From assembly GCA_022828225.1 (NCBI GenBank), contig JAJEJG010000013.1, positions 124,001 through 188,000 on the forward strand: 64,000 nt of DNA, in the 5' to 3' direction. Below, piece by piece: positions 28,913 to 51,681 of this stretch. This stretch comes from Nitrospirales bacterium (lineage in GTDB: Bacteria > Nitrospirota > Nitrospiria > Nitrospirales > UBA8639). Position numbers and translations under genes: made by a program. The notes below the pieces were generated by a model. It saw only the letters and a list, made by a program, of their open reading frames with translations. It had not been told where the DNA came from and did no database searches. The stretch's first letter is position 1. Every line of letters starts with the position of its first letter.

Positions 28913-29019
28913 CTGTCATTCCCGACGTTAGTAATCGGGAATCCAGTGTCTTTTGTCTTCACGGACGAAGAAAAAAGCAAAGACGCTGGATCCTCGATTA
29001 AAGATGTCGAGGATGACAG
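28913..29019. repeat. Paired inverted copies of the dispersed palindromic element (module B)
   Basis: The left copy (28913-28960) reads CTGTCATTCCCGACG then ATCGGGAATCCAGTGTCTTT. The right copy (28977-29019) is its mirror, GCAAAGACGCTGGATCC to GAGGATGACAG. Each half is a hairpin (TTCCCGA/TCGGGAA, TCCTCGA/TCGAGGA) and the two face each other across a short A-rich spacer. The unit resembles the paired dRS3-type (ATTCCC...GGGAAT) repeats known from Neisseria. It lies just upstream of mutM. Confidence 0.7.
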
Positions 29020-48662: not shown

Positions 48663-48737
48663 GGCGCCATGAGATGGCGCGGCTACAAATAGAACAACAA
48701 AGACACTGGATTCCCGATTACAAACGTCGGGAATGAC
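48663..48737 (+). repeat. Composite dispersed repeat, modules A and B
   Basis: Module A is GGCGCCAT-GAG-ATGGCGC plus GGCTAC (48663-48686). An A-rich linker and module B follow, CAAAGACACTGGATTCCCGA, then GTCGGGAATGAC (to 48737). It shows the full architecture of the family most clearly and lies downstream of the pseudo-caspase gene. Confidence 0.75.
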
Positions 48738-48778: not shown

Positions 48779-50677
48779 TTACTGTGCCAGCGGCAGAGCC
48801 AAGAGGGGAGAGGAGTCCGGCAGGAGACGGGTGATCCTGATTGATTCGGACGCGGAATCGAGAAATTCTCCCACGGTGATGGTTCCGTTCTTGTTGACAT
48901 CCGCACTGCCTGACAGCGCGGCCAGGATGTCTGCGGGTTTGCCTGTCGCCTGCCCGGGACGTCTGCGGAGTTGGATGACGGGGGTTTTGTCTTCACGTGA
49001 GAGACCGCTGATCCAGCGTATCCGAGAGGAACCATCCGAAGAGATGCCTTTTCCGGTCTGCTTCGCAATCGGCGTGTCGAGTATCAGCAGGGTCAGCCGG
49101 TTTTGAAGTTTTCCCAAGAGGCGCTGAAGCGTCCTGAGGGAGATTAACTGTTTGCTCGATGCCTCGGGGGACCCTTCATAGGGGATCAAATAGACCTCGC
49201 CGTTTCCCTGGTCGTGAACGGCCTGACCGGAATAATAGACGACCAGCACGGATTCCTTTCCGATTCTCTGACGGACCCACGTGAGGAGTGTTTTTGCAAT
49301 GTCTGCTTTTGCGGCATTGTTCCCCTGGAGGACGCGGATATTCCGGTTGGGGAACAAACCGGTGCTTCGCAAGGTCTCCCGCACGGTCATCAGGAGACCG
49401 TCTGGTGTACGATAAGCCTCAGGCCAGGCGTCCCGATAGGCATCCATCCCGACGAGCATGGCCACGTATGCATTCCGGTCAGGCGCCTTATCCTGCATCT
49501 TGGATCTGCTGGATTGCGGCCCTGATCCGGAAGCGCTGGGTTGGAGCGGCGCGACAATGCGGTGCGACCCTATGGGCGTGCCATCCTCGAGTTGCAGCGC
49601 GATCACCAACTCCGCTTTTTGTGCGGTCACGTTGACCGGCATGCGGCCGCGAATTTCCGTCGTCCTGGTTTCTCCGGGCTGGAACGTGCCCAGGGAGATG
49701 GGAAGGGACGTCATTTGAGAAAAGGCTTCGACCAGCGTCTCATGCCCCGACACGTTGGCATTGGCTGTGTTGATGGCGGTGCTTCCGAGGTTGGTGGCCT
49801 CGATCATCAGCACAATGGCTTCCCCTCCTTCGAGAATCAGATTATCGTTGCCATCCTTCAGCATCGTGCGAAAGGTAAAGAACGGCCGGTTTCCCGCTCC
49901 GGCGGGAGCCTGAGCCGAGAACCGGGGCGCGGCTTGCGGTGCGGCCCGCGGCGTGGACGGGGTGAATGCCGGTTGCCGGCCCTGTTGCGTCATCAGCGTT
50001 TGCGTGCCGCCGTCCTGAAGCACCTGTGGAACCACCGCCACGAGTTGTTCGGCCAGTTCCGCCGCCGCGCCGTTGATTTTGGCATCGTATTGGCCTGTGG
50101 TGCAGGTTACGGATTGGCCGGTAATGGTCGGAGCCCAAACCCTGACCTGGCCGCCGTAATGCAAAGGGATTTGTCCCAACGCGGCTCCGCCTCTATCGAT
50201 GAACACCGCTTGCAGCTTGAAGTCGAGGTTAGCGAGATAATTGTCTTCCTCCGCCATACGGTCGACTTCCTGGAACGCTTGGTTGACCATGCTGATTTGG
50301 ATAATCAGGTCGCTCGGTTTGGTGACCCGGACGGCTTCTCCGGTTCCCGAATAGGCCGTGACGGATTGAAAGGTTTCCTGTGCCAGGGTGAGAAAATTCT
50401 GGACGATCGCCTCTCCCGTGTTCAGTGTATACGGAAGGTCGCACGCCCGAATTTCGAGTGTGGCGTCCGTGACGCTCGGATCAAAGGCATACGCCACCGA
50501 GATGGGGATGGCCGGTTCTTTGGGTTTTTCGTCTTCGCCGAATCCGAAGCTGGGCATGCTGATGTCCGGAAAGTCGATGTCCGGCATGCTCACGTCCGGG
50601 AGATATGAGCAGCCTGAAAACTGGAGGATCGAAACGAAAAGGAGAAGTCTCGTGAGGGTACACGTTTTGAGAGACAT
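48779..50677 (-). CDS. Caspase-like (C14 fold) lipoprotein lacking catalytic residues, with EF-hand loop
   Basis: The 632-residue product has a lipoprotein signal with Cys23 in FSGC. A segment of MPDIDFPDISMP-type repeats follows, then a domain of about 200 residues, a CARDB-like beta domain (LILEGGEAIVLMIEATNLG) and a caspase-like region from about 400 (AYVAMLVGMDAY). Where active caspases have SGHG, this has YYSGQAVHD; where they have DACxSG it has LILDTPIAKQ. Both catalytic residues are lost. DVNKNGTITVGE (593-604) fits an EF-hand calcium loop. Probably an outer-membrane-anchored structural or scaffold protein. Divergent from the lipoprotein gene at 50878. Confidence 0.78.
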   Translation of the reverse strand: MSLKTCTLTRLLLFVSILQFSGCSYLPDVSMPDIDFPDISMPSFGFGEDEKPKEPAIPISVAYAFDPSVTDATLEIRACDLPYTLNTGEAIVQNFLTLAQETFQSVTAYSGTGEAVRVTKPSDLIIQISMVNQAFQEVDRMAEEDNYLANLDFKLQAVFIDRGGAALGQIPLHYGGQVRVWAPTITGQSVTCTTGQYDAKINGAAAELAEQLVAVVPQVLQDGGTQTLMTQQGRQPAFTPSTPRAAPQAAPRFSAQAPAGAGNRPFFTFRTMLKDGNDNLILEGGEAIVLMIEATNLGSTAINTANANVSGHETLVEAFSQMTSLPISLGTFQPGETRTTEIRGRMPVNVTAQKAELVIALQLEDGTPIGSHRIVAPLQPSASGSGPQSSRSKMQDKAPDRNAYVAMLVGMDAYRDAWPEAYRTPDGLLMTVRETLRSTGLFPNRNIRVLQGNNAAKADIAKTLLTWVRQRIGKESVLVVYYSGQAVHDQGNGEVYLIPYEGSPEASSKQLISLRTLQRLLGKLQNRLTLLILDTPIAKQTGKGISSDGSSRIRWISGLSREDKTPVIQLRRRPGQATGKPADILAALSGSADVNKNGTITVGEFLDSASESIRITRLLPDSSPLLALPLAQ

Positions 50678-50794: not shown

Positions 50795-50862
50795 TGATGG
50801 CGCAGCTACGAATACAAAAACAAAGACCCTGGATTCCCGATTAAAGATGTCGGGAATGACAG
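50795..50862 (+). repeat. Composite dispersed repeat between divergent lipoprotein genes
   Basis: TGATGGCGCAGCTAC (module A remnant), an A-rich linker, and module B (CAAAGACCCTGGATTCCCGA, then GTCGGGAATGACAG at 50849-50862). It occupies the 200-base divergent spacer, 15 bases before the next start codon, so it may affect expression of both genes. Confidence 0.7.
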
Positions 50863-50877
50863 ACAAGAGAAGACAGC

Positions 50878-51681
50878 ATGATCATAGTCAGCCGTAGCCG
50901 AAGCAGGAGTTTTCTTCCCATCATCCTGGCCACCGGTCTGGTGTCTCTCGTCTTCGCAGGATGCGGCGAATGGCCGCAAGCCCGTCTCGATGCGTACCTC
51001 GGGCAGCAGCCGATACAGGATCTCTCACGGTTTGCGGGTTTGCCGGTCCCGGTACAAGCCGGGCTTGTGCTTTTCAACGATACGACCGCTCCGGATTCGG
51101 CTCCCGAACTCTCCGAAGCCTCTCTGACATCCCTGACCGAACACGTGCGGAAGCAATTGGTCCATGACGTTCCGCTCGAGGTGGTGCGCATTGTCCATTC
51201 CCCGGATCCGGGAGCCTCGCCTCCGAAGTTTCCGTCGGTGCTGCAATGGGCAAAAGACGAGCACGTCGATTACCTCGTGATCACCGTTCTCTCGAGTTCC
51301 GAAATCGAGGTGCCGGAACGATTCCCCTGGCGAGGGTCCAGCCTGGGAGCCATCGCGCGCGGGTTGCAGTTCGGGTATCGGGCGGAAAACCTGGCGCTTG
51401 CCGAATTGGCGTTGGTCGACGTGAGTACCGGTCACGTATTGGCACGGGTCGAGGGAAATGCCTGGGCTTCCCTGGACCGGCTGGACCCGCCCATCGAGTC
51501 CAACGAGTACCCTGTCGTTCGACGGAACCTGGAAGATCCGCCCATTTACCCCGAAAAGGAAGAAGATGCGCATGACGTCATGCGAGCGGTCGCCGCCGGC
51601 GATGCCGTGAATCAGGCCGTGTTGCATTTGAAAGAGGCCTGGGGCGGATCTCGAACTGTCCCGGCGACTAGCGATAATTGA
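50878..51681 (+). CDS. Lipoprotein of unknown function
   Basis: A 267-residue protein with a lipoprotein signal peptide ending LVFAGC (Cys29). The mature sequence has an alpha/beta appearance: VQAGLVLFNDTTAPDS, LEVVRIVHSPDPG, VDYLVITVLSSSEIEVPE, NLALAELALVDVSTGHVLARVEG. This resembles periplasmic proteins that gather LptE/CsgG-like folds, but no family is assigned. The C-terminal part is acidic. It is divergent from the pseudo-caspase lipoprotein, and its 3' end overlaps the convergent yajQ by 14 bases. Confidence 0.78.
   Translation: MIIVSRSRSRSFLPIILATGLVSLVFAGCGEWPQARLDAYLGQQPIQDLSRFAGLPVPVQAGLVLFNDTTAPDSAPELSEASLTSLTEHVRKQLVHDVPLEVVRIVHSPDPGASPPKFPSVLQWAKDEHVDYLVITVLSSSEIEVPERFPWRGSSLGAIARGLQFGYRAENLALAELALVDVSTGHVLARVEGNAWASLDRLDPPIESNEYPVVRRNLEDPPIYPEKEEDAHDVMRAVAAGDAVNQAVLHLKEAWGGSRTVPATSDN

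Follow-up and report, generated by a model that had tools for sequence, protein, structure and literature searches.

What can a caspase-shaped protein be doing in a bacterial envelope once the residues that would let it cut are gone? The question is raised by a gene in a 64,000-nt stretch of DNA from a Nitrospirales bacterium (the window; contig JAJEJG010000013.1), a minus-strand ORF with an ATG start whose translation runs to 632 residues. The features considered here are the following.

48779..50677, minus strand: gene for the predicted pseudo-orthocaspase lipoprotein, 632 aa (ORF and translation; homologues across Nitrospirales)
50609..50677, minus strand: predicted signal peptide and lipobox, residues 1-23, FSGC, with Cys23 as putative lipid anchor (Cys23 conservation)
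50528..50608, minus strand: variable PDIS-repeat linker, residues 24-50 (alignment; pLDDT below 50)
49982..50524, minus strand: N-terminal alpha/beta domain (N-domain), approximately residues 52-232, in which Cys79 and Cys192 are invariant (alignment and model; marker of the family)
49529..49894, minus strand: CARDB/NEW3-like beta-sandwich domain, approximately residues 262-383 (Pfam matches of members; strand-rich model)
48782..49486, minus strand: pseudo-caspase domain, residues 398-632 (NCBIfam, Pfam in members, predicted fold)
49223..49225, minus strand: catalytic His position, here Gln485 (alignment with relatives)
49070..49072, minus strand: catalytic Cys position, here Pro536 (Cys absent from all 70 scorable N-domain members)
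49013..49015, minus strand: Trp555, fixed in the inactive clade (70/70 inactive versus 1/65 active forms)
48866..48901, minus strand: EF-hand-type loop DVNKNGTITVGE, residues 593-604 (translation, Pfam, regular expression)
50878..51681, plus strand: neighbor lipoprotein, 267 aa, with a predicted PelC/CsgG-like fold (profile, model, linkage)

The N terminus carries the sequence FSGC at residues 20-23, which we take to be a lipobox, and its Cys23 is at least 90% conserved among 54 aligned members. The presence of a signal peptide with a lipobox cysteine makes the product a predicted bacterial lipoprotein, in agreement with the lipid anchor proposed in the original prediction, which was made from the letters of the window alone. 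The PDIS repeats singled out there are real, but they form a linker of variable length that the AlphaFold2 model leaves at low confidence and that occurs in only the closest relatives among the 50 proteins compared. The model of the 632-aa protein, built on a 54-row alignment, has a mean pLDDT of 81. The strand and helix order of its N-domain resembles that of FlgT/LptE/CsgG-type domains, and a Foldseek search with the whole model, of which the N-domain matches are a by-product, returned FlgT 3w1e, 8z5n, and Cj1090c 7rxu; this predicted likeness is suggestive only. The CARDB-like region is modeled mostly as strands, and CARDB and NPCBM_assoc were matched by 13 and 10 of the 54 aligned members, respectively (E ≤ 0.1). 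Two homologous ORFs, of 993 aa (L024, 625-3606) and 803 aa (L009, 1042-3453), are longer than most.

The caspase part (residues 399-632) was modeled with pLDDT mostly above 90. In VIA-align, residues 400-632, predicted to have the caspase fold, matched MALT1 (7ak1; Z 17.9, 182 residues at an rmsd of 2.6 Å), and plant metacaspase 4 (Z 16.8, rmsd 4.0, 205 residues) and the Geobacter protein GSU0716 (Z 16.7, rmsd 2.9, 196 residues) also aligned. The predicted model thus has the caspase/hemoglobinase fold (clan CD, C14-like) that had been recognized in the sequence. Among profiles, NCBIfam caspase_w_EACC1 matched the window protein with an E value of 1.5e-8 and 34 bits, its curated cut-off of 140 being far above this score, and the PADLOC caspase profile did so with an E value of 2.4e-6. 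PF00656 was matched by 25 of the 54 aligned members (E ≤ 0.1; best, 1.3e-9); the single window sequence gave no match to it at E ≤ 1. A profile search of solved structures ranked EF-hand proteins best (E 0.0011) and found metacaspase-4 weakly (E 0.85). Taken together, the caspase_w_EACC1 and PADLOC matches, the PF00656 matches of the members, and the Z score of 17.9 of the predicted fold indicate that the relatedness of this protein to caspases is beyond chance.

The window protein reads YYSGQAVHD where active relatives show YYSGHG or YYAGHG and LILDTPIAKQ where they show LDSCFSG. The His-Cys dyad of active C14 peptidases is therefore replaced at both positions, by Gln485 and Pro536, exactly as originally predicted, and the protein falls among the pseudo-orthocaspases as PMC6426788 uses that name, i.e., p20 proteins with at least one dyad residue substituted. 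The same two positions were scored across relatives at loci drawn from among the matches listed: of 181 ORFs, 155 remained once identical C termini were dropped, 71 with the N-domain and 84 others, and 20 of the 155, unscorable at one or both positions, were excluded, which left 70 and 65 for comparison. The nucleophile column holds no Cys in any of the 70 N-domain ORFs (Pro in 31, Thr in 14, Ser in 8, and others in 17; the residues seen are P/T/S/M/A/I/G/Q/K). The His column is looser, with His still present in 16/70, Gln in 38/70, and Q/H/R/L/N/V/S seen overall. Both residues are kept in all 65 scorable ORFs without the N-domain, a set partly picked via the PF00656 caspase profile, which favors intact dyads. 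Outside Nitrospirales, the pseudo-caspase profile found 30 loci in 16 genomes; 36 of their 38 ORF rows have His and Cys, and the other two are halves of a single gene split by a stop. The unscored set includes eleven short C14 proteins (L080-L090) and others that do not align at the Cys, as well as an ORF cut by its locus end (L057:2974-3999) that has Pro at the Cys column and no visible N-domain.

Other positions around the former active site separate the two groups as well. Trp555 is present in 70/70 inactive versus 1/65 active forms, 9 of the latter having a gap there, and the Gly that follows the His is replaced by Ala in 60/70 inactive forms while being kept in 64/65 active ones; the preceding Gly484 is found in all 70 N-domain members. 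Fixation of Trp555 and the Gly-to-Ala change indicate that the active site was remodeled. A tree of the caspase domain was inferred from 127 of the 135 scored rows by a quick method with midpoint rooting, after removal of the His, Cys, and Trp columns; in it, the inactive forms make up a single clade (SH-aLRT, 99), and several long active branches were flagged. Loss of the Cys needs one change on this tree, and the His approximately eight. The single inactive clade suggests that the nucleophile was, most simply, lost once in an ancestor of the family. This loss would most simply have coincided with, or fallen near, the gain of the N-domain, the His having drifted later.

That the family might still be an enzyme using another catalytic residue is highly improbable. 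The caspase fold is well predicted and Thr or Ser occupies the Cys column in 22/70 members, which would be in its favor; however, the window protein and 31/70 members have Pro there, and no Cys, Ser, or Thr exceeds 85% in the caspase match columns of the family alignment. A conserved displaced nucleophile, which had been named beforehand as one observation that would speak against a dead peptidase, was rejected on these columns, the invariant Cys79 and Cys192 both sitting in the N-domain. The window protein is almost certainly a proteolytically inactive caspase homologue.

Pseudo-orthocaspases as such have been described: they have a p20-type caspase domain with a substituted His-Cys dyad and are presumed inactive, the substitutions accompany particular domain architectures, and those known come mainly from Alphaproteobacteria and Cyanobacteria, with the dyads YS, YN, YA, FS, QC, and HA (Klemencic et al. 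2019, PMC6426788). The main text of that article contains neither "Nitrospira" nor "Nitrospirae," and compared with the proteins treated there the Nitrospirales family adds the N-domain, the CARDB-like domain, a neighboring lipoprotein, and different dyad residues. In an earlier survey, the share of Nitrospirae metacaspases that keep the dyad was just 57% (Asplund-Samuelsson et al. 2012, PMC3501461); the loss is given there as a frequency, and "EF-hand" and "CARDB" are absent from its main text. In PMC12780485, metacaspases are named in the reference list only. We found no description of an inactive caspase-like lipoprotein family of Nitrospirales in the open-license literature searched. Inactive caspase relatives are thus already known, and the Nitrospirales lipoprotein family seems to be undescribed. 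The active orthocaspases of Nitrospirota (L170-L175, L150, L154, and others) belong to the same caspase clade as the inactive family, some share the CARDB-like domain, and the closest share the EF-type loop. Unlike the inactive family, they have intact GHG and DSCFSG motifs and no fixed Trp555, and they lack the N-domain by profile, although some of these ORFs are cut at the locus end, so that the N terminus is out of view.

The EF-hand-type loop noted near the C terminus is indeed there, at residues 593-604. DVNKNGTITVGE has candidate calcium ligands at loop positions 1, 3, 5, 9, and 12 and is flanked by model helices at 583-589 and 602-609, though its single-sequence Pfam EF-hand score is weak (E 0.097; 12.7 bits versus a cut-off of 25.4). 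A regular expression for the EF ligands matched 62/71 N-domain ORFs versus 27/84 others, and Asp593 and Glu604 are each present in 69/70 N-domain members. Such conservation would fit a dedicated sensor, in which calcium in the periplasm is read by the loop and shifts the pseudo-caspase from one binding state to another. In the eight nearest relatives that keep the dyad, however, a GxADxNxDGxIxxxELF-type loop sits at the same place, so the loop is inherited and older than the loss of catalysis, and taken alone it does not speak for a new role in sensing. Further, a single loop rather than a pair is seen, and L024 lacks it in the alignment of 50. Calcium sensing as a special feature of the family, originally suggested as one possible role besides that of a scaffold, is weakened accordingly, and we regard the sensor as unlikely.

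Homologues are spread widely through the order, which holds the nitrite-oxidizing Nitrospira. The window protein is matched in 140/146 genomes at E ≤ 0.001, caspase-only matches included, and the family profile gave full-length matches throughout Nitrospirales among the matches listed; outside the order, the matches read cover the caspase part, with or without the CARDB-like part. The nearest titled homologues (73-88% identical) come from metagenome-assembled genomes of Nitrospira sp. or Nitrospirales bacterium, and one farther homologue is from a genome titled Nitrospinota. The caspase-shaped domain thus appears to have lost its catalytic residue long ago and yet to have been retained in Nitrospira relatives. 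Among 11 same-genus genes (55 non-independent pairs), the N-domain had the lowest median dN/dS (0.16), followed by the CARDB-like domain (0.20) and the caspase part (0.29); within the last of these, the stretch that follows the lost Cys reached 0.37. The caspase part is under purifying selection, yet it is the least constrained of the three domains.

These values bear on the possibility that the caspase part is a decaying relic and that the N-domain and the CARDB-like part alone matter. Besides the highest dN/dS of the three domains and the approximately eight changes of the His, this reading draws on the g8/g9 homologues, all 17 of which, among the matches listed, end at query residue 382-396 without the caspase part, making that part dispensable there. 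In contrast, a dN/dS of 0.29 with open frames, the presence of Gly484 and Trp555 in 70/70 members, and the wide retention of the caspase part in the order since a single ancient Cys loss run counter to decay, which we consider unlikely. At the g9 loci L025-L030, the orthologues are 364-373 aa long, with the whole caspase part absent; the neighbor lipoprotein is present at five of these six loci, the L029 contig being without it, and several g9 genomes have it as two tandem copies.

Some animal pseudo-caspases tune active caspases, and the dead protein could similarly be a decoy or regulator that pairs with active orthocaspases of the same cell. Potential clients exist in the order, since 115/146 genomes have PF00656 matches, and a permissive lipobox pattern makes a number of the nearest active relatives look like lipoproteins too. 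Nevertheless, PF00656 has no match in the window genome (99.97% complete), and a profile built from 14 active relatives found the pseudo-caspase gene alone in it, so its sole detected caspase is the dead one and a decoy of active caspases is unlikely there. Throughout the window genus, PF00656 matches occur in only 2/14 genomes versus 14/14 for the pseudo-caspase protein, one of these being a contig-end fragment. Regulation of active caspases is thus distinctly unlikely as the role of the family. Caspase genes are clustered in other Nitrospirota families (G250:C8:41079-58347; L190, G192:C87), and the dyad is intact in the ones read (L182, L190, and L198). A role in antiviral defense was also considered and set aside: beyond its generic caspase hit (E 2.4e-6), PADLOC matched the window protein only weakly, to Mem_02 (E 0.05), and the neighbor lipoprotein had no match.

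The divergent orientation of the pseudo-caspase gene and a second lipoprotein gene, noted at the outset, was confirmed: the neighbor, at 50878-51681 on the plus strand, encodes 267 aa with a Cys29 invariant in 43 aligned members. It had zero matches in Pfam and NCBIfam, and its model (pLDDT 88) matched PelC (Z 12.0, rmsd 3.1, 144 aligned) and, further, CsgG (Z 10.4), FlgT (9.7), LpoB (8.9), and LptE (approximately 8), a predicted alpha/beta fold of the PelC/CsgG type. The N-domain and the neighbor have a similar order of secondary structures in the models. Sequence homology between the two was rejected, hhalign having aligned the signal peptide region only (probability, 6%). In the PelC/CsgG/FlgT/LptE systems, whose fold the neighbor is predicted to share and whose strand and helix order the N-domain model approaches, we know of no caspase domain.

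Both genes were listed in 89 genomes, the pseudo-caspase side of this count being 111 genomes among the matches listed, of the 140 that match. They lie on one contig in 80 and are divergent within 10 kb in 79/80, the exception being G035; 39 of the 79 pairs are within 1 kb. With genome sizes of 2-5 Mb, such linkage presumably goes beyond what chance would produce. Many f3 genomes have 4-8 kb between the two genes. At L119 (654-7839), glycosyltransferase-, membrane-protein-, and carbamoyltransferase-like genes, judged from their translations, lie in between, and a similar gap of 4.5-5 kb occurs in many f3 genomes. In f1, the order EVE, membrane gene, CstA, DUF520, neighbor/pseudo-caspase, porin-like, TatB, TatA is largely kept, with CstA and DUF520 assigned by Pfam and the other names being those we presume for these genes. 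On the other hand, the neighbor profile (E ≤ 1e-8) detected no neighbor in 55/146 genomes, including every f2 genome, three of which gave weak matches at E ≤ 1e-3. In at least G055, G058, G061, and G063 of f3, the pseudo-caspase protein is matched and the neighbor is undetected at E ≤ 1e-8. Because the neighbor is undetected in genomes that match the pseudo-caspase protein, the pair is common but not obligatory. The suggestion of a functional pair hence holds as far as conserved linkage goes, but not as a fixed partnership.

In the reading that we favor, the pseudo-caspase would join the 50878 protein in an assembly of outer-membrane lipoproteins, as its noncatalytic structural or binding subunit; we hold it with roughly even confidence. 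The lipoprotein would be anchored in the outer membrane and face the periplasm, a location suggested by general lipoprotein sorting rules only. Its former active-site face, remodeled around Trp555, may serve binding. Calcium in the inherited EF-type loop would stabilize the caspase fold rather than drive a dedicated switch. A narrower version, quite unlikely in our estimate, has the pair forming a PelC/CsgG-type ring or plug in the outer membrane, specific to Nitrospirales, with the retired caspase as its calcium-stabilized gate or client-binding part. If that version were true, a caspase fold would have been recruited to envelope transport or scaffolding after a single ancestral loss of the nucleophile. 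The protein, with its putative partner, offers a well-defined case in which to ask how caspase folds of bacteria are used when they do not cut. With, most simply, a single nucleophile loss, accompanied by gain of the N-domain and fixation of a new Trp, the family is a clean natural experiment in protease retirement.

Finally, a short palindrome-like repeat, TTCCCGATT-6-GTCGGGAATGAC, lies on either side of the pseudo-caspase gene on the plus strand (48707-48737 and 50830-50860), and another copy is found in the window at 28915-28945 on the minus strand. The pattern occurs 52 times, without mismatch, in the 2.36-Mb genome, versus 0 for a reversed control pattern; it is REP-like and probably has no tie to the function of the pseudo-caspase.
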